Positions 1 through 45,190 of a DNA stretch of 64,000 nt are shown here, one piece after another. Each line of letters begins with the position of its first letter. Within the stretch, counting starts at the first letter, position 1. The notes under the pieces were generated by a model that worked only from the letters and a program-made list of their open reading frames with translations, was not told where the DNA came from and did no database searches. This DNA is from Streptomyces seoulensis (lineage in GTDB: Bacteria > Actinomycetota > Actinomycetes > Streptomycetales > Streptomycetaceae): contig CP054936.1 in assembly GCA_013364255.1 (NCBI GenBank), forward strand, positions 620,001-684,000, in the 5' to 3' direction. The translations under genes and the position numbers were made by a program.

Positions 1-105
1 GTCGCAGCACCAGATCCGGGGATCCTGTCCGGCGTGCTCGGTGAGGGCCTGGCGGAAGGCGTCGCGGCCCGTTGCCGCGGCGAGGTCCTGCGGGTGGGCG
101 GTCAT
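1..105 (-). CDS. Transketolase C-terminal subunit, 5' end only (cut by window edge)
   Basis: Only the first 35 codons are present. They start with ATG at 105 and read MTAHPQDLAAATGRDAFRQA and on, the usual opening of the pyrimidine-binding half of a split transketolase. The ATG overlaps the TGA of the transketolase N subunit (ATGA at 102-105), so the two halves should be translationally coupled and form one ThDP enzyme. As seen: a start and a short family-like N-terminus. As inferred from the partner: it supplies the catalytic pyrimidine/C-terminal domains for transfer of a two-carbon ketol unit. In this cluster the acceptor may be a carrier-protein-bound aldehyde rather than a pentose phosphate. 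The remainder lies left of the window. Confidence 0.85.
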   Translation of the reverse strand, partial: MTAHPQDLAAATGRDAFRQALTEHAGQDPRIWCCD

Positions 106-1025
106 CGGTCCTGCTCCGTCCTCGACGCGGCGGCGAGGGCCTTGAGGGCCCGGTGCCTGAGGGTGGGCGACAGCAGGGCGTAGTGGCTCTTGGCGCGGTT
201 CTCCAGGAACGGCACTCCCCTGCCCTTGACGGTGTCCGCGAGCAGCACGGTGGGGACGCCCGGCTCGGCCGGCGGCTCGCGCAGTGCGGCGCTCAGCGCG
301 TCCAGGTCGTGGCCGTCGATCTCCACGGCCCGCCAGCCGAAGGCCCGCCAGCGGTCGGCCAGGTTGCCCCGGTGCGAACTGCCGTTGATCTGGAGGCGGT
401 TGCGGTCCACCACGGCGGTCAGGTTGTCGAGGCCGAGTCGGGCCGCCGAGTCGGCGGCCTCCCACACGCTGCCTTCCTGGAGTTCGCCGTCACCGAGCAG
501 GACGTAGGCCCGGTTGTCCCTGCCGTCCCGCCGGGCGGCCAGGGCGAGTCCGAGTCCCAGGGCGAGTCCGTGGCCGAGCGAGCCGGTGGGGAACTCGACG
601 CCGGGCACCGTCCGCAGCGGGTGGCCGCCCAGGCGGCTGCCGCTGCGGGCGTAGGTGTCCAGCTCCTCGACGGGCAGGAAGCCGCGCTCGGCGAGCACCG
701 CGTACAGGCCGGCGGCGGCGTGGCCCTTGCTGAGCAGGAAGTAGTCGCGTCCGGGCCACTCGGGCTCCTCGGGCCGCACGCGCAGCACGTCGAAGTAGAG
801 CGCGGTGAGGATGTCGGCGGCGGACAGCGCTCCGCCGATGTGCGCCCCCTCGGGGCTCGCCGCCATGGCGACGATGTGCTGCCGTACGCGCAGCGCCCGC
901 TCGGCGAGCGGAAGACCGGTGCGGGCGGTCGCCGTGGCGGCCGGATCGGTCACCGTGGCGGCCGGCTCTGCGGCGGCCGGATCGGTGGTGGCCGGGTCGG
1001 TGGCGGTCTGGTCGGTGGTGGTCAT
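102..1025 (-). CDS. Transketolase N-terminal (ThDP-binding) subunit
   Basis: This 307-aa protein is the diphosphate-binding half of a split transketolase. After a low-complexity Thr/Ala/Asp/Pro-rich N-terminus of about 30 residues comes the family start (MAASPEGAHIGGALSAADIL), the SKGHAAAGLYA segment, and the ThDP motif beginning GDGELQEGSVWEAA and ending about 25 residues later at an Asn in VVDRN. It starts with ATG at 1025, overlapping the TGA of the upstream NRPS (ATGA), and its own TGA overlaps the start of the C subunit. Split transketolases in an operon with a LysW carrier protein are known from azabicyclic/diamino-dihydroxyheptanoate pathways, where a two-carbon unit is added to a carrier-bound semialdehyde. 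That assignment is by analogy. Primary-metabolism transketolase is unlikely, since that enzyme is normally a single chain. Confidence 0.93.
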   Translation of the reverse strand: MTTTDQTATDPATTDPAAAEPAATVTDPAATATARTGLPLAERALRVRQHIVAMAASPEGAHIGGALSAADILTALYFDVLRVRPEEPEWPGRDYFLLSKGHAAAGLYAVLAERGFLPVEELDTYARSGSRLGGHPLRTVPGVEFPTGSLGHGLALGLGLALAARRDGRDNRAYVLLGDGELQEGSVWEAADSAARLGLDNLTAVVDRNRLQINGSSHRGNLADRWRAFGWRAVEIDGHDLDALSAALREPPAEPGVPTVLLADTVKGRGVPFLENRAKSHYALLSPTLRHRALKALAAASRTEQDR

Positions 1026-4000
1026 CGGGCACCGCCGGGGGTGTCGGGGTCGGTCGCCCGGGCCAGCAGCTCGGCGAGCGCGGGCACGTGCGGGGGTCGC
1101 ATCATGGTGTAGTGGTCGCCGGGGACGTCGTGGATCCGCAGCGGCCGGTCGAGCAGCCGCTGCCAGCCGGTGACCGGGCTGTGCGGCTCCTCGGCGGCGC
1201 GTACGGCGGTCAGCGGGCCGTCCCACGGTGTGAGCGGATACCCGCGCACCGCCCTGACGTTCGCGTTGAACACCGCCATCAGCCGGGAGAGCTGGCCGGT
1301 CGCGGTGTCCGGGGGCAGGACGTCGGCGGCGGCCGCCCGGGACAGCAGCTCCTCGGTGAGCCGCTCCGGCGGCACCGTGCGCAGCTCGTCCGGGTCGATC
1401 TCCAGGCGCCGGTCGGCGGCCCGGCCCAGTTCCCAGCCGAACCAGGCGGCGAGGTCGGCCTCGTCCGCCTGCTCCAGACCGTTGTCGAGGTTCGGCGGGC
1501 CGCCGTCGAGCATGGTGAGCGAGGCCACCTCGCGCCCGGTCCCGCGCAGCCGCTGGGCGACGGCGTAGGCGACCACACTGCCGACGCAGAAGCCGACGAG
1601 GTGGTACGGGCCGTGCGGCTGCACGCCGACGATGGCGTCGAGATAGTGCTCCACCGCCTCCTCCAGCAGGTCCACCGGGTGCTGTCCGGCGTCCAGGCCG
1701 AAGGACTGGAGGCCGTACACCGGCTGGTCCTCGGGGAGGTGCCGGGTCAGGTCGAGGTAGCTGAGGGCGTTGCCGACCGCGGGCGGCAGGCAGAACAGCG
1801 GCGGCCGGGAGCCGGCGGCCCGGATGGGCACGATCGGCGACCAGGCGCCGGACGGGCCGGTACGCAGCTCGGCGGCCATCCGCTCGACGGTCGCCCCGCT
1901 GGCGAACAGCGAGGAGAGCGGCAGCTCGCGGCCGTGCTCGGCGGCCACCCGGGACAGCAGCCGCACGGCGCGCAGCGAGGTCCCGCCCAGGTCGAAGAAG
2001 TCGTCGGTGACGCCGACGGGACGGCGGCCGAGGACGTCCTCCCACAGGGCCACCAGCGCCAGTTCCAGACCGTCCCGGGCCGCGACGTGCTCGCTCTCGT
2101 CGGTGACCGGGCCGGGGTCGGGCAGCGCCTTGCGGTCCGCCTTGCCGTTGGGCGACAGCGGGATCTCCGCCAGCCACACCACGGTCTCGGGCACCATGTA
2201 CTCGGGCAGCGAGCGGCCCATCGCCTCCCGCAGCCGCCCGGTGTCGACCCGTTCGCGGTCGCCGACGGCGTAGAGGACCAGCCGCTGGTCCCGGGCGAGC
2301 GCGACGGCGTTGCGGATCCCGTCCACGGCCCCGGCGACGGCCTCCACCTCGCCGAGTTCGACGCGGAAGCCGCGCAGCTTCACCTGGTCGTCCAGCCGGC
2401 CGAGGAAGTCCAGCGCGCCGTCCGGCCGCCAGCGCGCCAGATCGCCGGTGCGGTACATGCGGCCGCCGTGGAAGGGGTCGGTGACGAAGCGCTCGGCGGT
2501 GAGTTCCGGCCGGTTGAGGTAGCCCCGCGCCACCTGGACGCCGGCGATGCACAGTTCGCCGGGGACGCCGACCGGGGCGGGCGCGCCGCGCTCGTCGAGC
2601 ACGTACAGCCGGGTGTTGGCGATGGGGCGTCCGATCGGGACGCCCGGCCCTGGCTCGTCGGGGCGGCACTCCCAGTGACTGACGTCGATGGCCGCCTCGG
2701 TGGGGCCGTACAGGTTGTGCAGGCCGCAGTGGCCGGCCTCGGCCAGGAAGCGGCGGGCCAGGGCGGCGGGCAGCGCCTCGCCGCTGCACACCACCCGGCG
2801 CAGCGAGGTGAGGTCCGAGACCTCCTCCACCTCCAGGAACACCTCCAGCATGGAGGGGACGAAGTGGGCGGTGGTGACCCGTTCGGCGCGGATCAGACCG
2901 GCCAGGTAGCGCGGGTCCCTGTGGCCGTCCGGGCGGGCCACCACCAGCCGGGCGCCGGTCATCAGCGGCCAGAGGAACTCCCAGACCGAGACGTCGAAGC
3001 CGTACGGCGTCTTCTGGAGCACGGTGTCGTCGCCGCGCAGGCCGAAGCGGTCCTGCATCCAGCGCAGCCGGTTGACGATGCCCCGGTGGCTGTTGACCAC
3101 GCCCTTGGGCGTTCCGGTGGAGCCGGAGGTGTAGATGACGTACGCCGTGTCGTCCGGCGCGTTGACCGGCTCGGGCCGGTGCGGCGCACACCGTCGGAGG
3201 GCGGCGGCCTCCTCGTCCAGGTCCACCACCAGCGGGGCGGCCGAGGGCACCCGGTCGCGGGCGGCGGCGTGGGTGAGCACCACCTTCGCCCCGGCGTCCT
3301 CGCACACGAACGCGAGCCGCTCCTCGGGGTGGTCCGGGTCGAGCGGCACATAGGCACCGCCCGCCTTGAGCACCGCGAGCAGCGCGACCACCAGTTCCGT
3401 CGAGCGGTGCAGGCACAGGCCCACCAGCTCGCCCCGCCGCACGCCGAGCGCGCGCAGCCGGTGGGCCAGGCGGTTGGCGCGCCCCTCCAGCTCCCGGTAG
3501 GTCAGCTCGGCGCCCTCGAAGGACACCGCCACGGCCTCGGGCGTCCGGTCCGTCTGCCGGTGGATCAGCTCGTGCACGGCGTCCACGGGCGGGTGGTCGA
3601 CGGCGGTGGCGTTCCACTCGCGCAGCAGCAGTCGGCGTTCGGCCGCGGGCAGCACCGGCAGGTCCCCGACGGGCCGGTCCGGATCCTCCACCACGGCCTG
3701 GAGCAGGGTGCGCAGCTGGGCGAGGAACCGGTCCACCCAGCCCTCGTCGAACAGGTCGGTGCGGTACTCGACCGCGAGGTCGATCCCCGAGGGGCCGTAC
3801 GCGGCCGACATGTTGAGGTCGTACTTCACCTCGCTGCGCCGCGCGGGCAGCGGCTCGACACGCAGCGGACCGCGGGGCGCGGCGGGCGGCGGGGTGTTGT
3901 TGACCGCGAACATCACCTGGAACAGCGGGGCGAGCGGGGCCGAGCGGTCCGGCTGGACCGCGTCGACGATCTCCTCGAAGGAGAGGGCCTGGTGGTCGTA

Positions 4001-4973
4001 GGCGCCCAGCGCCACTTCGCGGACGTCGCCCAGGAGGTCGGTGAAGGTCCGCCGCGGGTCGATCCGGACGCGCAGCGGCAGGGTGTTGATGAAGCAGCCG
4101 ATCATCGGCTCGACGTCGGCGCTGAGCCGTCCGGCCACCGGGGTGCCGACGACCAGGTCGGTGCGTCCGGTGTAGCGGTGGAGCAGCACGTCGAAGGCGG
4201 TCAGCAGGGTCATGAAGAGGGTGCCGCCGTGCAGTTCCGCCAGCTCGGCCAGGTCCTCGGTGAGCGCGGCCGGCAGTCGCGCGGTGCGCAGCGCTCCGGC
4301 CCCGCTCCCGGCGGCGCCGGTGCGCGGGTGGACGGAGGGCAGTTCCAGCACCGGTGGGGCGCCGTCGAGCGCGGTGCGCCAGTAGGCGCGCTCGCGTTCT
4401 CCGGACCCCTCGCCGTCCGGGCCGCTTCGGCGGCGCGCGTAGTCGCCGTACTGGAGCGGCAGCGGCGGCAGCGAGTCGGGGCGGCCGGCGGCGAAGTCCG
4501 CGTAGAGGGTCTCCAGTTCGGACAGCAGCCGGCCCAGCGACCAGCCGTCGATCACGATGTGGTGCGCGGCCAGCGAGAGCACGTGCTCCGTCGGGCCGAT
4601 CCGCAGCAGCTCGGCGGTGAACAGGGGGCCTTTCGCCAGGTCGAACACCTGCCGGGAGGCACGCTCGACCGCCTCGTCCACCCACCGCCGCGCGTCGGGC
4701 TCGCCGGTCAGGTCGCGCACGGCCAGCGGCAGCGGCCGGGCGGGATGCACCCGCTGCACCGGTTCGCCGTCGACGAGGTGGAAGGTGGTGCGCAGCACCT
4801 CGTGCCGGGCGACGATCCGGTCCAGGGTGGCGCGCAGCGCCCGCTCGTCGAGCGCGCCGTGGACGCGTACCGCGAGCGGCACGGTGTAGGCGCAGCCGCC
4901 GGGAGCGATCCGGTCCACCAGCCACAGCCGGCGCTGGGTCGGCGAGGTGGGGTGCTCCTGGACGGCCGGGTGG

Positions 4974-4990
<17 letters not shown>
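1022..4990 (-). CDS. NRPS termination module C-A-T-TE (Ser-like code, Cys-type thioesterase)
   Basis: This 1322-aa protein has a condensation domain (residues about 15-440, HHIVIDG near 141), an adenylation domain (about 470-960; YTSGSTGTPKG near 618), a carrier domain (DLGGTSL, Ser near 1002) and a thioesterase (about 1075-1310). The specificity code read by eye is D-V-W-H-V-S-L-I-D-K, one residue from the classical serine code, so Ser is predicted. In the thioesterase the nucleophile elbow is GFCVGS, with Cys (residue about 1135, codon 1586-1588) instead of Ser; the active-site His is in GDHYTMM. The GTG at 4990 is preferred because GGAAG lies 6 nt upstream; an ATG at 4984 is possible. The gene overlaps the preceding NRPS by 17 nt and the transketolase by ATGA. 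It should load the last residue and release the product. Confidence 0.95.
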
Positions 4991-8242
<3,252 letters not shown>

Positions 8243-8246
<4 letters not shown>

Positions 8247-11200
8247 CGGGCGCTGCCTTTCGGGTCCACGGCCAACGAGGCTCGGGCGGCGTGCGCGGCG
8301 AGCATCGCCGCCTCGATGCGAGGGGTGAGCGAGGCCACGGTGGGATGGTCGAACACCTCGCGGAGCGCGAGCTCCACTCCGAAGCTCTTGTGGATGTCCC
8401 ACACCAGCTGCACCGCGGCGATGGAGTTGCCCCCCAGTTCGAAGAAGTTGTCGTGCACGCCGAGTTCCGGTACGTGCAGGAGGGCGCACCAGAGTTCGGC
8501 GAGCGTGCGTTCCCGGCGGTTGCGGGGTTTGACGACGGCGCGGGCCGCCGTGAGGTCGGCCGCGGCGGGGGCCGGCAGGGAGCGGCGGTCGATCTTGCCG
8601 CTGGGGCTGAGCGGCAGCGCCTCCAGCAGGACGAAGGCGTCCGGCACCATGTGCGCCGGGAGCCGGTCCGCCAGGTGGGCGCGCAGTTCGGCCGCGGTGA
8701 GGGCGTCGTCCGCGGCGACCGCGTACCCGACCAGCCTCGGGTGGCCGGGGTTGTCCTCGCGCAGCAGCACGGCGGCGGCGCGCACCCCCGGATGCTCGGC
8801 CAGCACCGTTTCGACCTCGCCCAGTTCGATCCGGAAGCCGCGCAGCTTGACCTGGTCGTCGACCCGGCCGAGGAAGTCGAGGCGTCCGTCGGGCAGCAGT
8901 CTGACCAGGTCGCCGGTCCGGTAGATCCGCGCGTCCGGGTCGGGCAGGAACGGGTCGGGTTTGAAGCGCTCCTCGGTCAGCTCGGGCCGTCCCAGGTAGC
9001 CGCGGGCCAGTCCGGCGCCGCCGATCCACAGTTCGCCCGGCGTCCCGGTCGGCAGCAGCTGCCGGCGCCGGTCCAAGACGTAGGCCCGCATGTTGCCCAT
9101 CGGCCGTCCGATCGGCGGCGAACCCTCGTAGGCGCCGGGGCGGCATTCCTCGGCGATCACCGTCACGGTGCCCTCGGTGGGTCCGTAGCCGTTGATGAAG
9201 CGCCGGCCGGGGACCGACCAGTCGTCGACCAGGCCGCCGGAGAACGCCTCGCCGCCGACGAAGGCGATCCGCAGCGCCGGGAACTCCTGCCCGGGCAGCA
9301 GCTTCATCACCGCCGGCGGCATGTCCATCACGGTGATGCCCTGCTCGGTCATGAACCGGCTCAGCGCGCGCACCGACAGCAGGGTCTCCTGCCGGGCGAG
9401 GCAGAGCCGGGCGCCGCTGGTGAGCGCGCCGAAGATCTCGAACGCCGAGACGTCGAAGCTCAGCGAGGCGAACTGGAGCATCCGGTCGTCGGGGCCGAGG
9501 CCGAACATCTCGTGGACGTTGGCCATGAAGTTGCAGACCGAGCGGTGTTCGATCAGCACGCCCTTGGGCCGTCCGGTGGAACCGGAGGTGTAGATCACGT
9601 AGGCGAGATCGTCCGGCCCGGAGAGCGGCTCGGGCCGCGTGTCGGGCAGCGCGGTCCAGGTCTCGTCGGTGTCCAGCTCGATCACCGCGGCCGTAGTCCC
9701 GGGCAGCCGCCCGCGCACCGCGGACTGGGTCACCACGACCGGGGCGGCGCTGTCGGCGAGCATGAAGGCCAGCCGGTCGGCGGGGTAGGCCGGGTCGAGC
9801 GGCACGTACGCGCCGCCGGCCTTGAGCACCGCGAGGACGGCGACCACCAGTTCCGGCGAGCGCTCCACGCAGAGTCCGACCCGGCTCTCCCGGCCGACGC
9901 CGAGTTGGCGCAGCCGGTGCGCCAGCGCGTTGGCGCGGCGGTCCAGCTCGCCGTAGGTCAGCGCGGCGCGGTCCTCGAACACCACCGCGACCGCGTCCGG
10001 GGCGGCGTCCGCCCGGCGCTCGATCAGCTCGTGCACGGTCGCCGCGTCCTCGAAGGGGCGCGCGGTGTCGTTCCAGGTGCGCACCTGGTCGTGGTACTCG
10101 TCCGGTGCGAGCAGCGGCAGCAGCGTGAAGGGCCGGTCGGGCTCGGTCAGCGCGGCGTCGAGCAGGGTGCGGATCGTCGCGAGCGTCCCGCGGACGGTGT
10201 CCGGGGCGTACAGGTCGGACCGGTACTCGGCGGTGAGCCGCAGGCCGCCGCTGTGCGGGGTGGCGGAGAAGCTGAGGTCCGCGCGTGCGGTGCCGGCGTC
10301 CAGTTCGGTCACGGTGGCGCTGAGCGGGCCGAGGCCGAACTCCGCGCGGTGCGCGTCCTCCAGCGCGAACACCACCTGGTAGACCGGGTTCTGGTCGGCG
10401 GAGCGGCCGGCCGCGGCCAGTTCCACGATCCGCTCGAACGGCGTGTCCTGGTGCTCGAACGCGCCCAGGACGACGGCGCGGACCCGGTGCAGCAGGTCAC
10501 GGAAACCGGGCTCGCCGCTCAGGTCGGTGCGCAGCGGCAGGGTGTTGATGAAGCAGCCGACCAGCGGTTCGCTGCCGGGCGCGTCGCGGCCGGCCACCGG
10601 GCTGCCGATCACCACGTCCTCGGCGCCGGTGATCCGGCTCAGATACGCCTGGCAGAGCGCGGCCAGGGCCATGAACAGGGTGACGCCCTCGGCCCGGCAC
10701 AGGGTCCGCAGCGCGTCCAGCGTCCGGGGCTCGATGTCGAGGCTCACCCGGCCGCCGCGGTTGGTGGGCCGGGACGGGCGTACGAAGTCGGTGGGCAGTG
10801 CGAGGTCCTGCGGCGCGCCCTCCAGCGCGCCGCGCCAGTACTCCGCGTGGGGGCCCTGCGCCGCCGCGTCCGCCGCGTGCTGGAGCTGTCCGGCGAGGTC
10901 CGCGGGCTGCACGGCCGGGGGCGGCGCGGGCGCGCGGCCGGCGCGGGCCACCTCGTAGCAGTCGGCGAGGTCGCGGCTGAACACGCCGAGCGACCAGCCG
11001 TCGAAGACGATGTGGTGCAGGACCGCCAGCAGGACGTGCCGTTCCTCCCCCAGGCGCAGCAGTTCGCAGCGGATGAGCGGACCGGTGGTGAGGTCGAAGC
11101 GGTGCCGGGCGATCCGCTCCGCGCGGCCGAGCCGTTCCTCGTCGTCGCGGACCTCGACCACCGGGAGGTCGAGGTCGGGCACGGCGCCGACGACCTGGAG

Positions 11201-13177
11201 GGGTGTGCCGCCCTCGACCACGAAACGGGTGCGCAGCGCCTCGTGGCGCTCCACCACCGAGCGCAGCGCCTGCCGCAGCGCCGCCTCGTCCAGCGGTCCG
11301 GTCAGCTCGAAGGCGAGCGGCACGTTGTAGGTGGTGCCGGAGTCGTCGAGGCCGTGCATCAGCCACATCCGGCGCTGGGACGGCGACAGCGGCAGCGGCC
11401 CGGAACGGTCGGCGGTCGCCGGCTCGGGCCGTGCGTCCGCGCGCCGGGGCGCGGCGGCCACCGCGCCGGCCAGTCCGCGGACGGTGGGCTCGGCGAACAC
11501 CGCGGTGAGCGGCAGTTCGACGGCGAGGCGTTCGCGCAGCCGTCCCGTCACCCGGGCCGCCGACAGGGAGTTGCCGCCCAGCAGGAAGAAGTCGTCCAGC
11601 GCGCCGACCCGGTCCACGCCGAGCACCTCCTGCCACAGCCGCGCGAGGTCGGCCTCGACGCCCTCGGCCGGCGCCACGTACGCGCCGGCCAGCTCGTCGC
11701 GGCCCGCGGCGGGGGCCGGCAGGGCGGACCGGTCGACCTTGCCGTTGCGGGTGAGCGGCAGCGCGTCCAGCGGCGTGAAGGAGGCGGGGACCAGGTGTCC
11801 GGGGAGCCGTTCGGCGAGCCAGGAGCGCAGTGCGGCGGCGTCCGGCCGCTCGCCGGGCCGGAACACCGGGTAGGCGGCCAGCCTCGGGTCGCCGGGGACG
11901 TCCTCGCGCAGGGCGACCGCCGCGCCGCCGACCTGCGGGTGGGCGCACAGCGCGGACTCGATCTCGCCGAGTTCGATCCGGAAGCCGCGCAGCTTGACCT
12001 GGCCGTCGGCGCGGCCCACGAACCGCAGGCTGCCGTCCGGGGCGCGCACGGCGAGGTCTCCGGTGCGGTAGTACCGCGAGCCGTCGGGCTCCAGGGTGAC
12101 GAAGCGCTCCGCGGTGAGCTCCGGCCGGTTCAGATAGCCGCGGGCCAGTCCCGTGCCGCCGAGGAACAGCTCGCCCTCGGCGCCGTCGGGCACGTCCGCG
12201 CCCCGGTCGTCGAGCAGCCGGGCCTCGATGCCGCGGATGGGCCGCCCGATGGACGGCTCGCGGTCCTCGTCGCCCGCGGGCACCTCGCCCGCGGTGGCGA
12301 CGACGGTGCACTCGGTCGGGCCGTAGTGGTTGACCAGGGTGAACGGCAGTCCCGCGGGCGGGTGGCGGTGCAGCCGGTCGCCGCCGGTGAGCAGGTAGCG
12401 CAGCCGGGTTCCGGTCGGCCACTTCTCGGCGATCACCAGTTCGGCCAGGGGGGTGGGCAGGAACGAGACGGTGATCCCCGCCCCGGTCAGCCACTCCACC
12501 AGTTCGGCCGCCGAGCTGTGCTCCTCGGCGGCCAGGTGCAGTTCGGCGCCCGCGGCGAGCGTCGGCCAGATCTCCCACACCGAGGCGTCGAAGGCGGTGC
12601 CCGCGATCTGGGTGGTGCGGTCCCGCGGGGTCAGTCCGTACGCCTCACGGTGCCAGGCGACCAGGTGGGACAGGCCCTCGTGCGCGATCTCCACGCCCTT
12701 GGGCAGGCCGGTGGAGCCGGAGGTGTAGATGCAGTAGGCGAGGTCCGACCCGTCCGTGGGCACGGGGGCCGCTCGCCGCTCGCCGCCGTCCTCGTCACGC
12801 GGCACGTCGAGGGCCGGGCAGTCGAGTGCGGGCAGTGCGGGCCGCACCTCCGGCTCGGTGAGCACCAGGCGGGCGCCGGCGTCCCTGATCAGGAACTCCA
12901 GCCGCTGGGCCGGATAGCCGGGGTCGACCGGGACGTACGCCGCGCCCGCCCGGAGCACGGCGAGCATGCCGACCACCATCTCGGGCGACCGGGTCGTGGC
13001 CAGCACCACGCGGTCGCCCGGCGACACTCCCGATTCCTGGAGCCGGAGCGCCAGCGACTCGGCCCGGCGCACCAGGGTCCGATAGGTGAGGCGGCGGGTT
13101 CCCTGGACGACGGCGATCGCCTCGGGACGGGCCTCGGCGGCCCTGGACACCAACTCCTGCACCGGCAACGTGTTCAC
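8243..13177 (-). CDS. NRPS initiation plus elongation modules A-T-C-A-T (first module Leu-like)
   Basis: This 1644-aa protein begins directly with an adenylation domain and no condensation domain, as expected for a loading module. A1 has YTSGSTGLPKG near 149 and T1 has LLGGNSL near 534. The C domain has HHIVFDG near 720, A2 has YTSGSTGRPKG near 1192, and T2 has ELGGNSI near 1581. The A1 code is D-A-W-F-L-G-H-V-V-K, one change (N to H) from the known Leu code DAWFLGNVVK. A2 reads about D-V-F-D-F-G-G-V-T-K, which I cannot assign. The GTG at 13177 follows GAGGCGG about 8 nt upstream and lies 21 nt after the exporter stop. No epimerase, methyltransferase or oxidase domain is present. It should start the peptide chain with a free N-terminus, or with a substrate modified by enzymes outside the window. 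Confidence 0.95.
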
Positions 13178-13198
13178 GAGTTCCGCCTCTCGGTCCGT

Positions 13199-14539
13199 TC
13201 AGTGGTCGGCGACCGCTTCCGCGTTCGGATCGCCGGTCTTCGCCTCGACCGCGTCGTCCGTGCCGCCGTCGTCCGCCGCGACCGCCGCCATGTCGTCGGC
13301 GGGCGGCGGGAGTTCGCTCATCGCGCGGATCGGGGAGAACACGATCCACAGCGCCGAGGCGAAGAGGCCGGCCGCGCCCACGAACAGCGACGGGCGCAGT
13401 CCGATCGAGTCGCCGAGCCAGCCGCCCAGCAGCGCGCCCAGCGGCACCACGCCCCAGGACAGGAAGCGGTAGCTGGCGTTCATCCGGCCCAGCATCGCGT
13501 TGGGTGTGATGGTCTGCCGCAGACTCACGACCTGGATGTTGGCGACCATGGTGCCCACCCCGCCGATGAAGAACGACAGCAGGAGAAGCCCCAGGGCCAC
13601 GGGGCGCGGACCGCCCGCGAGCGGCACCAGCACCGGCGCGGCGCAGCCCAGCACCATCGCGAGCGTGACGGTGTTGCCGAGTCCGAGGCGCTCGGAGACC
13701 CGCTTGGCGATCAGCGAACCGGCCAGCGAGCCGACGGCGCCGCCGCCCAGCACCAGACCGACCGTCCCGGGCGAGAAGCCCAGTTCCCGGGTGGCGTAGA
13801 GCAGGAAGACGGTCTCCAGCACCAGCCAGAACATGTTGTACGTGGCGGCCTCCAGCACGCAGGCGCGCAGGACCCGGTTGCCGAAGGTGAACCGCAGTCC
13901 CTCGGCGATCTGCCCCCGTACCGGCGGGTGTTCGGCGGGCCGGGGCGGGGCGGGCTCCCGCTTGCGGACCAGGCCGAGTCCGCCGGCCGAGACGGCGAAC
14001 GCGATCGCGCTGACCAGGATCGCCGTCTGCGGGGTCAGCCAGCCCGCCAGCCAGCCGGCCAGGGCCGGACCGCCGACCTGTGCCGCCGACGCGCTGACCT
14101 GGAGCTTGCTGTTGCCCTCCATCAGGTTGTCGCGGTCCACCAGCGACGGCAGATACGACTGGTACGTCACTTCGAACAGGACCGTGAACACGCCGACGGC
14201 GAGCGCGACCGCGACCAGGTAGCCGAGGTTCAGCTCGTCCAGGGCGGCCAGCAAGGGGATGAGGGCGAGCAGGGCGGCGCGGCACAGGGTGCTCGCCAGC
14301 ATCACCGGCCGGCGCCGGTAGCGGTCGGCCCAGACGCCGGCGAACAGGGTCAGCACCAGGAACGGAAGGTAGGAGGCGGCGTTCAGCACACCCATCGCCT
14401 TCGCGTCCACCTTCAGGGTGACCGCGGCGGTCAGCGGCACGGCCAGGAGCGTGACCTGGCTGCCGAACTGGGCAACCGTGTCTCCGGCCCAGAAGACCAT
14501 GAAGTCACGGTTGCCCAGGAGGGAGCGGTGCCCGGTCAC
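13199..14539 (-). CDS. MFS transporter, probable product exporter
   Basis: This 446-aa major facilitator superfamily protein has about 12 hydrophobic segments. Its first loop carries FAGVWADRYRRRPVML, matching the conserved cytoplasmic G-x(3)-D-R-x-G-R-R-type motif, and its C-terminal tail is Asp/Ala-rich and hydrophilic (DDMAAVAADDGG). It resembles the EntS/DHA3-type drug and siderophore exporters of actinomycetes. The GTG start at 14539 overlaps the stop of the LysW gene (GTGA), so it is coupled to that carrier protein and precedes the NRPS genes. The position suggests self-resistance by export of the peptide; this is inferred from context and no substrate can be read from the sequence. Confidence 0.9.
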   Translation of the reverse strand: MTGHRSLLGNRDFMVFWAGDTVAQFGSQVTLLAVPLTAAVTLKVDAKAMGVLNAASYLPFLVLTLFAGVWADRYRRRPVMLASTLCRAALLALIPLLAALDELNLGYLVAVALAVGVFTVLFEVTYQSYLPSLVDRDNLMEGNSKLQVSASAAQVGGPALAGWLAGWLTPQTAILVSAIAFAVSAGGLGLVRKREPAPPRPAEHPPVRGQIAEGLRFTFGNRVLRACVLEAATYNMFWLVLETVFLLYATRELGFSPGTVGLVLGGGAVGSLAGSLIAKRVSERLGLGNTVTLAMVLGCAAPVLVPLAGGPRPVALGLLLLSFFIGGVGTMVANIQVVSLRQTITPNAMLGRMNASYRFLSWGVVPLGALLGGWLGDSIGLRPSLFVGAAGLFASALWIVFSPIRAMSELPPPADDMAAVAADDGGTDDAVEAKTGDPNAEAVADH

Positions 14540-14700
14540 TCGCCCCAGTCCTCCTCGACCTCGGGCGCCAGGGCGACCAGGACCGGGTCCAGGGCGAGGA
14601 TCTCGAGCTCGCTCGCACACCCGGAGCAGTCGAGGATCTCGCCCTTCCTGGACCCGGCCGGGAGAGCCAGCCCCTCCTCGCACTCAGGACAGACGACCAT
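14536..14700 (-). CDS. lysW: LysW-type amino-group carrier protein (AmCP)
   Basis: This 54-aa acidic protein starts MVVCPECEEG and ends EVEEDWGE. It has a zinc-binding pair (Cys4/Cys7 and Cys25/Cys28) and the invariant C-terminal EDWGE of LysW, whose last Glu side-chain carboxylate is joined to the alpha-amino group of glutamate or aminoadipate. The length and motif order are exactly those of the family. The ATG at 14700 has a strong AGGAGG 5 nt upstream; longer in-frame starts lack this. It is the first gene of the leftward cluster operon. In Thermus and archaea LysW serves lysine/arginine synthesis. In streptomycetes its homologues work in secondary metabolism (vazabitide A, ficellomycin, azinomycin). 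The expected partner ligase (LysX), kinase (LysZ) and reductase (LysY) are not in the window and are predicted to the left. Confidence 0.93.
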   Translation of the reverse strand: MVVCPECEEGLALPAGSRKGEILDCSGCASELEILALDPVLVALAPEVEEDWGE

Positions 14701-15074: not shown

Positions 15075-15740
15075 ATGTCCCTTCGAGTACTGGTCTGCAA
15101 CGACCTGCCGATCGTTCTTGACGGGCTTCGCAGTCTCATCGAGGCCGAACCGGACATGCTGGTCATTGGCACCACCAACAGCGGTATGGAAGCGATCATG
15201 ATGGCGCGCGCCCAGCGGCCCGACGTGGTCGTGACCGGTCTGGACCTCCAGGGCATCAACGGCACGGAGATGATCCGCCGACTCCTCCGTGAGCCCGGAG
15301 AGACGCCGCCCCGCGTCGTGGCGCTGGCCATGAACGACGACGACGAGACCCTCGTCAGCCTGCTGCACCTCGGTGTCAACGGCGTACTGGTCCGCGGCGC
15401 CACGGGGCAGGAGCTGAGCGCCGCCGTGCGGTCCGCCGCCAAGGGCCAGACGACACTCGCTCCGCAGATCGCCACCCGGCTCGTCGACTGGTACCGGCGC
15501 GACAGCCGCGGCCGCAGCGAGGCGTTGCGCATCCCCACCGAGGAGATCACCGCCCGCGAGCGCCAGGTGCTGACCCTGCTGGCACACGGCCACTCCACGG
15601 AGGAGGTCGCCGAGCAGCTGTCGATCGGAGTGACCACCGTACGCACCCACCTCTACCGGCTGCGCTGCAAACTCGACGTGCGCGACCGCGTCCAGCTCGT
15701 CTCGCTCGCCTACCGGGCCGGACTGATCCAGTCGGCCTGA
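15075..15740 (+). CDS. NarL/LuxR-family response regulator with degenerate receiver
   Basis: This 221-aa protein has an N-terminal receiver-like domain and a C-terminal LuxR helix-turn-helix (ITARERQVLTLLAHGHSTEE region, about residues 157-215). The receiver is non-canonical. The phospho-acceptor position within DVVVTGLDLQG is Gly55 instead of Asp, the acidic pair near the N-terminus is ND, and the conserved Lys-Asp near residue 112 is Arg-Gly. It therefore probably does not respond to a kinase by aspartyl phosphorylation and may sense a ligand, as other atypical streptomycete regulators do. No kinase gene is adjacent. It is divergent to the LysW-NRPS operon and is the likely pathway-specific regulator (inferred). 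The ATG at 15075 is preceded by AAGGA. Confidence 0.88.
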   Translation: MSLRVLVCNDLPIVLDGLRSLIEAEPDMLVIGTTNSGMEAIMMARAQRPDVVVTGLDLQGINGTEMIRRLLREPGETPPRVVALAMNDDDETLVSLLHLGVNGVLVRGATGQELSAAVRSAAKGQTTLAPQIATRLVDWYRRDSRGRSEALRIPTEEITARERQVLTLLAHGHSTEEVAEQLSIGVTTVRTHLYRLRCKLDVRDRVQLVSLAYRAGLIQSA

Positions 15741-18797: not shown

Positions 18798-19250
18798 ATG
18801 ATGCGCGTGTGGACTGTGCCGGCCCTGTTCGCGCTCTGCGGCTCGGCCGCCGCGACGGGAGAGTTCTTCGCGGGAGACCCGGGCGGGGCCACCGCACTCC
18901 TGCTGGCGTTCCTGGCGCTCGCGGGGGTGAACTCGCCCCTGGTCTTCCCGCGTTCGGTCGGCGCGCGGGAGGCGCAGCGGCGCAGTGCGGCCGACGGCCG
19001 GCCCATTGTCTTCTGGCGGCCGGGCTGCGCGTACTGCGTACGCCTGCGCCTCCGGCTGGGCCGCGCCGCCCGCGCGGCGCACTGGGTCGACATCTGGCGC
19101 GACCCGGCGGGAGCGGCGGCGGTACGGGCCGCCAACGACGGGAACGAGACCGTGCCGACCGTCGTCGTGGCGGGCCGGCCGCACACCAACCCCGATCCCG
19201 CCTGGGTGCGCGACCAGCTCTCCGCGCCGTCTCCCGGCCCCCGTTCGTAG
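18798..19250 (+). CDS. Glutaredoxin/mycoredoxin-like membrane-anchored protein
   Basis: This 150-aa protein has two N-terminal hydrophobic segments (residues about 3-22 and 30-50) followed by a small thioredoxin-fold domain. The redox motif is CAYC (Cys77-Cys80) in FWRPGCAYCVRL, and TVPTVVVAGRPHTNP gives the conserved cis-Pro region. This matches actinobacterial mycoredoxin-like proteins that reduce mycothiol mixed disulfides; here the domain would be membrane-tethered. The ATG at 18798 is used. It is probably monocistronic, with convergent NIPSNAP downstream. The precise substrate is unknown. Confidence 0.82.
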   Translation: MMRVWTVPALFALCGSAAATGEFFAGDPGGATALLLAFLALAGVNSPLVFPRSVGAREAQRRSAADGRPIVFWRPGCAYCVRLRLRLGRAARAAHWVDIWRDPAGAAAVRAANDGNETVPTVVVAGRPHTNPDPAWVRDQLSAPSPGPRS

Positions 19251-19289
19251 CGCCGGCTCCCGCGCGGCGGCCGGGACGCGCGGGCGCGG

Positions 19290-19625
19290 TCAGCGGTCCC
19301 CGGTGCCCTCCCGCGGGGGCTCGGGGAGCAGCGGGCGCATGAAGGTGCGTTCGTAGCGCAGTACGCAGCCGCTGTCGTCCCTGATGCGGTCCGCCTCGAT
19401 GAACTCCGGATCGTTGCCGAACAGGGTCCGGTACCGCTCGTAGGCCGCGAGGCTGGGAAAGCTGAACAGGGCGAGCGCCTTGTCGCTGGCCCCCTCGGCC
19501 GGCAGGAAGTACCCGTGGTGCGTTCCGCCGTGCTGGGCCACCAGCCGCATCCAGCGGTTACCGAACCGCTCGAACGCCTCGATCTCGGACGGATCGATCA
19601 CGTACTCGACTACGCAGGTAATCAC
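19290..19625 (-). CDS. NIPSNAP family protein
   Basis: This 111-aa dimeric alpha+beta barrel-type protein begins MITCVVEYVIDPSEIEAFE and carries HGGTHHGYFLPAEGASDKAL, the characteristic NIPSNAP segment, and FSFPSLAAYERYRTLF. The function of bacterial NIPSNAP proteins is poorly defined. It lies 18 bp downstream of the VOC gene in the same direction, so both are probably transcribed together and controlled by the divergent TetR repressor through the operator at 20058-20092. Confidence 0.85.
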   Translation of the reverse strand: MITCVVEYVIDPSEIEAFERFGNRWMRLVAQHGGTHHGYFLPAEGASDKALALFSFPSLAAYERYRTLFGNDPEFIEADRIRDDSGCVLRYERTFMRPLLPEPPREGTGDR

Positions 19626-19643
19626 CCCGCAAGGCTAACGCGC

Positions 19644-20030
19644 TCACCGCCCGTCGGGTGCGGTCCAGGACACGAGCTGGAGGATCACGCCGTTCGGGTC
19701 GGTGACCTGGAAGAGGCGTTCGCCCCACGGCTCTTCGCGCAGCGGCATGGTGATGCGGACGCCCTCGGCCCGCAGTCGCTCGTACTCGGCGTCCAGGTCG
19801 GCCACCGTGAACGCGATGATCACCCCCGCGGCGCGCTGGTCCCGGACGTCTTCGGGGAGGACCTCGATGCCGCGCCGCAGAAAGATCACGTGGACGGCGT
19901 CCTCGCGGACCAGCGAGGCGAAGCCTTCGGCGGCCATGGCCTCCTGGAAGCCGAAGTGCGCGGTCAGGAACGCGGCGGAGGCGGGGACGTCGTCGACGGT
20001 CAGGGAGACGGCGGTGGAAGTGATCTTCAT
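19644..20030 (-). CDS. VOC (glyoxalase/bleomycin-resistance fold) protein
   Basis: This 128-aa single-domain vicinal-oxygen-chelate protein starts MKITSTAVSLTVDDVPAS and ends with the typical FQVTDPNGVILQLVSW strand. Members bind metal-dependent substrates, or sequester antibiotics; the substrate here is unknown. It is divergent from a TetR regulator 110 bp away. The intergenic region carries an exceptionally clear dyad, so it is most likely repressed by that TetR and induced by a small molecule. NIPSNAP follows in the same transcript. Confidence 0.88.
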   Translation of the reverse strand: MKITSTAVSLTVDDVPASAAFLTAHFGFQEAMAAEGFASLVREDAVHVIFLRRGIEVLPEDVRDQRAAGVIIAFTVADLDAEYERLRAEGVRITMPLREEPWGERLFQVTDPNGVILQLVSWTAPDGR

Positions 20031-20057
20031 GGATTCTCCTGGCGCTCGGGACCAAAA

Positions 20058-22399: not shown

Positions 22400-23671
22400 C
22401 TACCAGCGCACCGGCAGCTCCCGCAGTCCCCGCATGAGACTGGTGCGCCACCGCGGGGCGCCGTCGCCGTCGAAGGCCAGGCGGGGGAAGCGCTCCAGCA
22501 GGAGGCGCAGGGCCGCGGTCGCCTCCAGGCGGGCCAGCGGGGCGCCCAGGCAGTGGTGCAGTCCGTGCCCGAAGGCGAGGTGGGCGCGGGTCTCGGCCGG
22601 ATCGCGCCGGATGTCGAACCGTTCGGGGGCGGGGAAGCGGGCGGGGTCGCGGTTCGCGGCGGCGATGGAGAGCACGACGCGCGCGCCGGCGGGTATCCGG
22701 ACGCCGCCGAGGGTGACCGGTTCGGCGGCGTAGCGGTAGGCGCCGGCCGGCACGGGCGGCTCGAAGCGGAGCGTCTCCTCCACGGCGCCCTCCAGCAGGC
22801 CGGGGTCGGCGCGGAGGGCGGCGAGCTGCTCGGGATGGCCGAGCAGCAGGTGGACGGCGCCGGAGATCAGGTTGACGGTGGTCTCGTGCCCGGCGACGAG
22901 CAGCAGGAAGGCCATGCCGAGCAGTTCCTCGGAGCTGAGCCGGTCGGCGCGGTCACCGGCGTTTCCGTTCCTGCCGTCCTTCCCGTCCGTCCCGTCGTGA
23001 CCGTCGGCGCGGTCCCCGTCGTGACTGCGGACCAGGGCGTGCAGCAGATCGCTCTCCGGCGCCTCGCGCTGCCGCCGCTTCTCCTCCGCCAGCCCCATGA
23101 GGTACGCGGCCATCTCCCGCGAGGCGCGGCCGGACTCCTCCGGTTCGTCGAGGGCGACGACCTTCACGGACCACGCCCGGAAGACGGGCCGGTCCGCTTC
23201 CGGCACGCCGAGCAGCTCGCAGATGATGGTGAGCGGCAGCGGATGGGCGTACGCGGCCACCAGGTCCGCGCGGCCGTCGGCGGCCACGGCGTCCAGGAGC
23301 GCGCCGGCCGCCTCCTGGACGCGGGGGCGCAGCGCCTGGACGCGGCGGGCGGTGAACTCGCGCGCCACCAGCGTGCGCAGACGGGTGTGGTCGGGCGGAT
23401 CGACCTGGAGCATGTTGCGGCCCACGGCGTACAGCCCGTCGTCCTCGAACTCGGCCGAGTGGCGCACGTCGTTGCGCAGCCTGGGGTCGACGAAGGCGGC
23501 CCGCACCTCCTCGTGCCCGACCACCGCCCAGGACTCGTCCCCGGTGGGGAAACGCACGTGGTGGACGGGCCCGCGGGAACGCAGCGCGGTGAAGGCGGAG
23601 TGGGGATCGGCGGTGAAGTCGTGGGTGAGATCGGCGAGTCGAACGGTGGGGTGCTGGTGCTGCGGGCACAT
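22400..23671 (-). CDS. Cytochrome P450 with Asp/Gly-rich insertion
   Basis: This 423-aa soluble bacterial P450 has the I-helix oxygen-activation motif AGHETT, the ExxR motif EETLRF and the heme loop FGHGLHHCLGAPLAR with ligand Cys near residue 374. The CYP105/107-like layout suggests a class I enzyme that needs ferredoxin and reductase, none of which is adjacent. Between the H and I helices (residues about 212-242) the usual short DEDG loop is expanded to an Asp/Gly/Arg-rich repeat (DGDRADGHDGTDGKDG and on). The ATG at 23671 follows GGGAGCC. The neighbouring TetR and shared dyads indicate inducible expression. The substrate is unknown. Confidence 0.94.
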   Translation of the reverse strand: MCPQHQHPTVRLADLTHDFTADPHSAFTALRSRGPVHHVRFPTGDESWAVVGHEEVRAAFVDPRLRNDVRHSAEFEDDGLYAVGRNMLQVDPPDHTRLRTLVAREFTARRVQALRPRVQEAAGALLDAVAADGRADLVAAYAHPLPLTIICELLGVPEADRPVFRAWSVKVVALDEPEESGRASREMAAYLMGLAEEKRRQREAPESDLLHALVRSHDGDRADGHDGTDGKDGRNGNAGDRADRLSSEELLGMAFLLLVAGHETTVNLISGAVHLLLGHPEQLAALRADPGLLEGAVEETLRFEPPVPAGAYRYAAEPVTLGGVRIPAGARVVLSIAAANRDPARFPAPERFDIRRDPAETRAHLAFGHGLHHCLGAPLARLEATAALRLLLERFPRLAFDGDGAPRWRTSLMRGLRELPVRW

Positions 23672-23693
23672 CGGCGGCTCCCGGGACAGAAGC

Positions 23694-23707
23694 GGGGACC
23701 ATTCCCC
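23694..23707. promoter_or_regulatory. GGGGA-N4-TCCCC dyad upstream of P450 (copy 2)
   Basis: GGGGA-CCAT-TCCCC, a perfect inverted repeat, lies 23 bp upstream of the P450 start codon, where a bound repressor would block transcription or elongation. Confidence 0.6.
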
Positions 23708-23739
23708 GTCTAGACGGCGGGACGACCCTAGCATGAAGT

Positions 23740-43844: not shown

Positions 43845-45059
43845 TCAGCCGGCGCTCAGCGCGGCGATGTGCGAGAGCAGCGGGGCCGCGCCGTCCTCCG
43901 CGGCGAGGCCGCGGGCGAGTTCGGCGGCGCGGCGGCGGTGGGCCGGCTCGGACAGGCAGGCGGTGATCGCGTCGCCGAGGGCGTCGGCGGTGAGGTCCCG
44001 GAACGGCACGGGCCGGGGGGAGACTCCCAGCCCGTGCAGGCGGGACGCCCAGAACGGCTGGTCGGCCATGACGGGAACGGGCACGGCGGGCACTCCCGCG
44101 CGCAGACCGGCCGCGGTGGTGCCCGCCCCGGCGTGGTGGACCACGGCGGCCGTGCGGGGGAACAGCCAGTCGTGCGGGACGTCGCCGACGGTCAGGACGT
44201 CGGCGCCGCGGCCGCTCACACCTGCCCATCCCGCCTGCACCACCGCCCGCACGCCCGCCCGCCGCACCGCCGCGGCGACGAGTTCGCTGAGCCGCTCCCC
44301 CTGCCCCGCCGCCATGCTGCCGAACCCGATGAACACCGGGGGCGGGCCGGCCCGGAGGAAGTCGGTCAGGGCGGCCGGGGGACGCCAGCCGTCCGGCCGG
44401 GCGGGCCACCAGTAGCCGACCCCTTCGGCCCAGGACGGCCAGTCCTCCGGGCGCGGCACGACCAGCGGGCTGAAGCCGTGGAAGACCGGCCGGACGTCCA
44501 CCGGCCCCGAGGGCCGGGCGGCGGGCAGCCCGAGGCGGGCGCGCAGCCGGGTCACCGCGCCCGCGAAGGCCCCTTCCGCGCGCCTCAGCACGTCCCGGCC
44601 CGCGGCGAGGTTCGCCGCCGGGCCGAGGCTCCCGGCGCTCCGCGCGTTGGGCAGCGGGAAGCGGCCGGTGGGGAAGGCCGGCACGAGGTAGGCGCCGACG
44701 ACGGGGACGCCGAGCGCTTCGCCGGCCGTCCGGCCGAGGGGCGCCGGGGCGAAGGCCGTGATCAGGAGGTCGGCCCCGCCTGCCACGGCCTGCGCCACCC
44801 CCTCGGCCAGGCCGTCGGTGTACGCCCTCGTCAGGGCCCGGACCTCGTCCCGTGACGCCGCCCTGCCCCGGTCCCGGATCAGCTTCCGCGGGTCTCCCGG
44901 CACGGGCCGGTGTTCGAGACCGCACGCGCCGACGAGTGCGGCGAAGGCCGGGTGAGCGGCCACGGCGACCTGATGGCCCGCGTCCCGCAGCCGCCGCCCC
45001 AGTCCGGTGTAGGGCGCGACGTCTCCCCGTGAACCGGCGGTGATGATCAGAATGCGCAT
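43845..45059 (-). CDS. GT1-family glycosyltransferase (UGT/MGT-like)
   Basis: This 404-aa GT-B protein begins MRILIITAGSRGDVAPYTGL. The C-terminal donor site VVHHAGAGTTAAGLRAGVPA, followed by PVMADQPFWASRL, is typical of sterol- or macrolide-type GT1 enzymes using UDP- or dTDP-sugars. The ATG at 45059 with GAGGAGGG 8 nt upstream is preferred over the longer frame. The acceptor is unknown and no sugar-biosynthesis genes are nearby, so it may use a common sugar nucleotide and modify small lipophilic molecules. Confidence 0.9.
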   Translation of the reverse strand: MRILIITAGSRGDVAPYTGLGRRLRDAGHQVAVAAHPAFAALVGACGLEHRPVPGDPRKLIRDRGRAASRDEVRALTRAYTDGLAEGVAQAVAGGADLLITAFAPAPLGRTAGEALGVPVVGAYLVPAFPTGRFPLPNARSAGSLGPAANLAAGRDVLRRAEGAFAGAVTRLRARLGLPAARPSGPVDVRPVFHGFSPLVVPRPEDWPSWAEGVGYWWPARPDGWRPPAALTDFLRAGPPPVFIGFGSMAAGQGERLSELVAAAVRRAGVRAVVQAGWAGVSGRGADVLTVGDVPHDWLFPRTAAVVHHAGAGTTAAGLRAGVPAVPVPVMADQPFWASRLHGLGVSPRPVPFRDLTADALGDAITACLSEPAHRRRAAELARGLAAEDGAAPLLSHIAALSAG

Positions 45060-45190
45060 GCCGCCACCCTCCTCGGCGGACGCGGTCCGCTCGCCGTCGC
45101 CGACCGTCTCCGGCGCCGTTGTCACTGGTCTGCTCTACAGTTCCCGGCACTTGATCATTGCGGGTGCGGGAGGCACGTATGGGGTGGGTG

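Follow-up and report, generated by a model that had tools for sequence, protein, structure and literature searches.

An amino-group carrier protein gene cluster of Streptomyces seoulensis that probably directs an aziridine-bearing nonribosomal peptide

In this study, we analysed a 64,000-nucleotide window from Streptomyces seoulensis (contig CP054936.1, positions 620,001-684,000), together with 38.5 kb of its left flank in the same genome, and we describe a set of 22 genes that includes a LysW-type amino-group carrier protein (AmCP) (table 1). A first-pass annotation of the window had placed LysW, a major facilitator superfamily (MFS) exporter, three nonribosomal peptide synthetase (NRPS) genes and a split transketolase on one strand, an arrangement borne out by coordinates, domains and junctions; the claim for the transketolase C subunit holds once its gene is followed past the window edge. 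The six junctions from LysW to this subunit comprise four 4-base overlaps, one 17-base overlap and one 21-base gap, and overlaps of 1-4 bases occur at 14 of the 17 minus-strand junctions of the cluster; operon structure was deduced from gene overlaps alone, and gene starts were picked by eye. Overall, the genes appear to form a complete AmCP-dependent set, which in all likelihood serves the assembly of an aziridine-bearing nonribosomal tetrapeptide.

Aligned with four relatives, LysW displays two CxxC pairs and the EDWGE C-terminal end, and is thus canonical, as first annotated; it passes Pfam PF21344 (Zn_ribbon_LysW; 42.0 bits against a cut-off of 27), and among solved structures it comes closest to LysW chains (PDB, E=1.2e-8). 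The annotation had also proposed that LysX, LysZ, LysY and an aminotransferase should be sought to the left, and had named absence of the Lys genes from the next 15 kb as refuting: all are present within that distance, at about -6.1 to -10.3 kb, with LysK beyond. The aminotransferase is of the DegT type and not of class I/III. LysK passes the NCBIfam cut-off for '[LysW]-lysine hydrolase' (366.9 vs 363), LysZ that for '[LysW]-aminoadipate kinase' (248.5 vs 223) and LysY that for argC (320.8 vs 233.6); the top model for LysX is LysX itself, and its LysX_preATP_grasp Pfam domain scores above cut-off. The cluster further contains adjacent homologues of AziU3 (PDB matches Azi29, E=5.8e-77, and AziU3, E=7.1e-77) and AziU2 (Azi28, E=8.6e-52, and AziU2, E=9.7e-52); TAL-effector chains in the latter search were treated as spurious, no single stretch passing alone. 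Domain and family searches identified a sulfotransferase (PF19798) and CysC, CysD and CysN within the cluster, with predicted sulfation activity. In a 2022 JACS study, the AziU3/AziU2 pair is said to form the aziridine via sulfate elimination. Sulfation and ring closure are summarised in PMC9570651. The pair and the sulfation genes therefore place the pathway among the aziridine makers. On sequence grounds, we assign the cluster with high confidence to the AmCP aziridine class. Some observations pull the other way: LysW falls under the NCBIfam TIGR01206 cut-off (35.7 vs 53.2), LysX falls under its equivalog cut-off (252.8 vs 275.6), and no AlkZ-type self-resistance gene was found near the cluster, the genome's two lying about 2.8 and 3.7 Mb off; such genes are reported for some related clusters in PMC9040887. 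We rejected a role in primary lysine/arginine metabolism, given that the same gene runs also hold AziU3/U2, transketolase, sulfotransferase and NRPS genes. LysW-dependent lysine/arginine biosynthesis occurs in Thermus and archaea; the LysW/X/Y/Z/K set is alike, whereas the S. seoulensis cluster adds transketolase, sulfation, AziU3/U2 and NRPS genes alongside.

Table 1. Genes of the S. seoulensis cluster. Coordinates are window positions; negative values lie left of the window edge in the same genome.
Feature	Position	Strand	Basis or remark
LysW-type AmCP, 54 amino acids	14536-14700	-	First gene of minus-strand run; Pfam PF21344
MFS exporter, probable	13199-14539	-	PF07690/PF05977; product export predicted; also in G170, NRRL F-6131, Actinocrispum
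NRPS1, A1-T-C-A2-T	8243-13177	-	Pfam domains, motifs, A-domain codes
NRPS2, C-A3-T	4974-8246	-	Motifs, Pfam domains, code
NRPS3, C-A4-T-TE	1022-4990	-	Motifs, Pfam domains, code; thioesterase (TE) release predicted
Split transketolase N (thiamine diphosphate-binding) subunit	102-1025	-	PF00456, E=1.7e-45
Split transketolase C subunit	-860 to 105	-	PF02779 and PF02780 on whole gene; only first 35 codons (1-105) in window
Hydroxylase	-1831 to -857	-	
GNAT	-2482 to -1886	-	
Arginase-like gene	-3415 to -2486	+	
Sulfotransferase	-4182 to -3436	+	PF19798
AziU2-like	-5127 to -4489	-	PDB Azi28/AziU2 match
AziU3-like	-6152 to -5124	-	PDB Azi29/AziU3 match
DegT aminotransferase	-7480 to -6149	-	Domain match
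LysX	-8343 to -7477	-	LysX_preATP_grasp domain
LysY	-9362 to -8340	-	argC model
LysZ	-10261 to -9359	-	NCBIfam '[LysW]-aminoadipate kinase'
LysK	-11358 to -10258	-	NCBIfam '[LysW]-lysine hydrolase'
CysC	-11885 to -11355	-	Family match
CysD	-12790 to -11882	-	Family match
CysN	-14058 to -12790	-	Family match
LuxR-type response regulator	15075-15740	+	Divergent from lysW; possible cluster regulator; NCBIfam NarL-type matches below cut-offs
Note.—A, adenylation; C, condensation; T, thiolation domain.

The 22 proteins were searched with tblastn against other genomes. All of them recur in the same order in genome G170, at 75-93% identity, so the gene set is beyond chance. Actinocrispum wychmicini, a member of another family, also has all 22 (48-76% identity), with CysC/D/N beside LysW and not beyond LysK, while Streptomyces sp. 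NRRL F-6131 has 14 of the 22 in 40 kb (72-87% identity) and Micromonospora tulbaghiae has the AmCP/AziU core in common, with a different NRPS line. Of the 392 genomes of the genus, 27 gave an AziU3 match (E<=1e-10); a named species collection gave 87 confirmed AziU3 stretches, 80 of them listed, with flanks of about 10 kb per side. Within these flanks, all 69 named loci that exceed 20 kb have AziU2 as well as AziU3. A rapid AziU3 tree, of 83 rows, groups the S. seoulensis protein with those of G170 and NRRL F-6131 (99% SH-aLRT), sets Actinocrispum with L042 and L043 alongside these in a six-row fork (93%) and leaves Azi29 in a separate eight-row clade (100%), although the program warns that long branches make the deeper joins unsure.

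Adenylation (A) domain codes were read from an alignment of 116 A-domain hits, not all of them full-length, that came from 82 sources (the S. seoulensis cluster, four extended clusters and 77 loci). The column map was checked by its recovery of the familiar codes for Thr (DFWNVGMVH), Val (DALWLGGTF), Asp (DLTKVGHVG) and Ser (DVWHLSLID). As the first-pass annotation had read them, the first module is Leu-like (A1, DAWFLGHVV) and the last Ser-like (A4, DVWHVSLID); between them stand A2 (DVFDFGGVT) and A3 (DVRHFALLA). The A3 code is seen in four of the 116 hits, one in each of four syntenic clusters, and an attempt to assign it a substrate failed, the best solved relatives being linear gramicidin synthase and other A domains. 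With moderate confidence, the peptide order would be Leu, carrier-derived residue, X, Ser.

The evidence favours the earlier proposal that the carrier-derived residue enters at one of the middle modules, and co-occurrence with AziU3 narrows it to module 2. The code DVFD[F/M]GGV[T/A] is present in 49 of the 65 AziU3 sources having an A domain in reach, the other 17 of the 82 sources (L067 and L074 among them) having none in their flanks. Code-bearing domains range down to 44.7% identity with A2, below the Ser-like A4 of the same cluster (50.3%); thus, its conservation goes further than overall similarity would carry it. For a control, the 392 genomes of the genus were scanned with a profile built from 16 of these A subdomains; 28 places reached 150 bits or more, and of the 27 genomes that hold them 26 are AziU3-positive. 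A code was read at 27 of the 28 places, and every one conforms to DVFDFG[G/A]V[T/A]. An A2-class domain therefore occurs in 26 of 27 AziU3-positive against 1 of 365 AziU3-negative genomes (Fisher's exact 2.6e-38, a value overstated by related genomes, a post hoc cut-off, a profile built from AziU3 loci and the scoring of only some first-look candidates per genome). Judged by this co-occurrence, module 2 would most likely take the AmCP-derived residue, an assignment held with good confidence. Besides the inflated Fisher value, several points count against it. The code was not seen in 16 of the 65 sources with a reachable A domain; the 150-bit line was set after the scores were seen (lowest above 151.7, next below 147.5, with code DVFESGGVA); and the candidates scored per genome, among the matches listed, numbered 11 for the A-domain profile and 5 for the AziU3 search. 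G359 (L170/L171, G359:C1:8066001-8106000) has AziU3 and LysW but no A2-class domain was found in its genome, and G124, conversely, has such a domain but no LysW or AziU3 match in its genome; the linkage is thus not absolute. The G359 locus contains AmCP genes, AziU3/U2 and a sulfotransferase; the surrounding 40 kb gave no NRPS match, and this locus may join its carrier residue in some other way. In G124 (L168/L169, G124:C1:7062001-7102000), an NRPS with DVFDFGGVT lies about 14 kb from a sulfotransferase homologue; this may be a decayed cluster or a different use of the code. Three loci just under the line (L163, L164, L165), in genomes without an AziU3 match, read DVFESGGVA. In G077, which has an AziU3 with 94% identity to Azi29, a DVFDFGGVT domain lies about 37 kb from AziU3, beyond the 10 kb flank, which may explain part of the 16 misses. 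A literature text search found 'DVFDFGG' in no paper, though coverage was partial and absence proves little. The A2 code offers a testable rule to spot the module taking a carrier-derived residue.

A plausible route can be drawn, in which the genome supplies gene presence, order, family, conservation and the linkage of the A2 code with AziU3, and the vazabitide/azinomycin literature supplies the reactions, their order and the possible placing of sulfation and ring closure on the carrier. LysX would attach glutamate to LysW, linking the glutamate amino group to the carrier's C-terminal Glu, and LysZ and LysY would convert the glutamate to the semialdehyde. The split transketolase would then add two carbons and the DegT aminotransferase a second amino group, giving carrier-bound diamino-dihydroxy-heptanoate (DADH). 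CysD/N/C would make 3'-phosphoadenosine 5'-phosphosulfate, with which the sulfotransferase would sulfate DADH; the AziU3/AziU2 homologues would close the aziridine by sulfate elimination, and LysK would free the amino acid from the carrier. Module 2 would activate this amino acid through A2, between Leu (module 1) and the module 3 residue; Ser would come last (module 4), followed by thioesterase release and export by the MFS protein.

This route presumes that the AmCP and NRPS genes work together. That they are two unrelated neighbours is scarcely credible: the AmCP set of G359 does stand without an NRPS match, yet here NRPS3 overlaps the transketolase N gene and this in turn the C gene, LysW heads the same strand run, and the AmCP/NRPS arrangement is kept in Actinocrispum, in another family. 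That the cluster is the one for a compound already known (azinomycin, vazabitide A or ficellomycin) is improbable, judging by the AziU3 tree, the A-domain codes and a published description of one related cluster, even if AmCP and AziU genes are common to that group. The azinomycin cluster includes a Thr-specific module; a Thr code is found in five loci of the separate Azi29 clade but is absent from the S. seoulensis cluster. Azinomycin identity was rejected on the position of AziU3 outside that clade and on the lack of a Thr code among the four A domains. There is also no polyketide synthase among the 22 annotated genes, in contrast with azinomycin, and no AlkZ-type gene nearby. The likeness to azinomycin extends to the aziridine-forming pair (by homology), the NRPS, the DVFDFGGVT domain carried by G077 and the reductase and transketolase steps (AziC4, AziC5/C6) given in PMC9570651. 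The same source describes the DADH/AmCP route of vazabitide A, likewise shared. Vazabitide-type clusters differ in having Val and Thr modules and a P450, where Leu- and Ser-like modules, a hydroxylase and an arginase-like gene occur here. Ficellomycin contains an azabicyclic amino acid next to an aliphatic one, as would the predicted peptide with its Leu-like first module. Malevonin cluster 3 of S. kitasatoensis is vazabitide-like, with Val, Thr and two 90%-identical A domains on which prediction tools are unclear (PMC12690601); unclear A domains are a further likeness to vazabitide-type systems. This description fits L100, which has two DVFDFGGVA domains (90.6% identical) plus a Val code (the pair in L104 is 79.7% identical), and not the S. 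seoulensis cluster, where Val and Thr A domains and a duplicated unclear A domain were not found on comparison with it. We infer that the unclear domains of malevonin cluster 3 belong to the DVFDFGGV class of A2. Finally, the carrier residue might be loaded by module 3, or by both middle modules, rather than by module 2 alone. The A3 code is unreadable, and some AziU3 loci have two or more DVFD A domains (L048, L061, L084, L100, L104), which means that the family at large may include cases of double loading; nevertheless, with the A3 code confined to four syntenic clusters and the A2 code so common among AziU3 sources, we regard this as unlikely.

The genes that set the cluster apart are less easily interpreted. 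Among the clusters examined, the hydroxylase and the arginase-like gene lie next to AziU3 only in the four syntenic clusters, and of the 69 loci longer than 20 kb only two (L040 and L041, both of this subfamily) have them within the roughly 10 kb flanks. The sole, weak solved relative of the hydroxylase is 1e5r ('proline oxidase', E=3e-4), which we take to be type II proline 3-hydroxylase. Besides S. seoulensis and G170, 29 more of the 392 genomes have hydroxylase matches (E<=1e-20), but identity is high only in G170 (88%), the next best-scoring reaching 38%. The arginase-like protein has arginase homology (E=1.6e-25), yet all four aligned orthologues read GGDCT and DGDLD where arginases carry GGDHS and DAHGD, so arginase activity is not to be assumed. 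Its matches (E<=1e-60) are limited to three of the 392 genomes: S. seoulensis, G170 (85%) and G059 (74%). The G059 homologue (L192/L193, G059:C5:170001-210000; gene near 19129-20050 of the joined stretch) lies in a genome without an AziU3 match, with otherwise only distant NRPS and LuxR similarity to the 22 proteins within 40 kb; the gene is thus not private to these clusters. By eye, its neighbours include a terpene (2-methylisoborneol-type) synthase-like open reading frame (ORF) and its regulator. The cluster has conserved hydroxylase, GNAT and arginase-like genes, and one may ask whether their products open or alter the carrier-derived DADH/aziridine in the final peptide. Nothing speaks directly against this; still, the azinomycins contain the azabicycle and vazabitide A has one (PMC9570651), and we think such alteration doubtful.

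The orthologous cluster of NRRL F-6131 (L130/L131, G392:C6:84001-124000) is reduced: within 40 kb there is no LysZ, DegT, sulfotransferase, transketolase N or C, or CysC/D/N. The stretch is free of N runs; at the expected LysZ, DegT, sulfotransferase and transketolase sites, 172, 77, 393 and 132 bases separate neighbouring tblastn matches, and permissive tblastn gave nothing better than E 0.054. The simpler explanation is that the genes were lost, as those four gene sets occupy the same places in Actinocrispum, which falls outside the three-species clade. On another contig, a second, distant AziU3 cluster (L097) carries LysZ, DegT, both transketolase subunits and a sulfotransferase. Genome-wide searches, which covered sulfotransferase, LysZ and transketolase N and not DegT, transketolase C or the Cys genes, found the only sulfotransferase match in the L097 cluster, the best LysZ match there too (45%; one other, weaker kinase at 39%, perhaps ArgB) and six transketolase N matches, the best again in L097 (57%). 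The next of these (52%) is on another contig, so the transketolase step could come from outside the L097 cluster. The reduced cluster may thus borrow the enzymes of the second; it could be decaying instead, but its LysW, X, Y, K, AziU2, AziU3, MFS and three NRPS genes are kept at 72-87%. It allows a direct test of AmCP enzymes acting on the LysW of another cluster.

The first-pass claim of a new AmCP-dependent pathway stands as to AmCP dependence, but 'new' is too strong, for the residue route resembles the known one. The general recipe is that of azinomycin and vazabitide, and the differing part looks like the peptide line and the two tailoring genes, hydroxylase and arginase-like. Product novelty is held with moderate confidence: no match to a known compound was found, in a comparison that left MIBiG and reference clusters outside. 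No literature combining aziridine, LysW and biosynthesis was found either, under partial coverage in which absence proves little. A more daring reading would join several of these threads: an undescribed Leu-azabicycle-X-Ser peptide whose X would be a further non-standard residue, prepared by the hydroxylase together with a protein of arginase fold whose metal ligands are altered; DVFDFGGV as a genomic mark, throughout the actinobacteria, of aziridine residues built on a carrier; and enzyme sharing between AmCP pathways of one cell, through which a cluster can lose its kinase, transketolase, aminotransferase and sulfotransferase genes and rely on those of a remote paralogue, as in NRRL F-6131. 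We offer it as a speculative possibility, made less likely by the 74% arginase-like homologue of G059 outside any such cluster. To our knowledge, few aziridine natural products are known. They can alkylate DNA (PMC9570651), and a conserved cluster whose peptide line differs from the described azinomycin- and vazabitide-type ones makes a concrete target for a new compound.

Elsewhere in the window, a P450-like ORF (22400-23734, minus strand) and a glycosyltransferase-like ORF (43845-45125, minus strand) were seen by eye, with no connection to the cluster. The LuxR-type regulator adjoins lysW also in G170 and NRRL F-6131, and lies about 3.3 kb from it in Actinocrispum.

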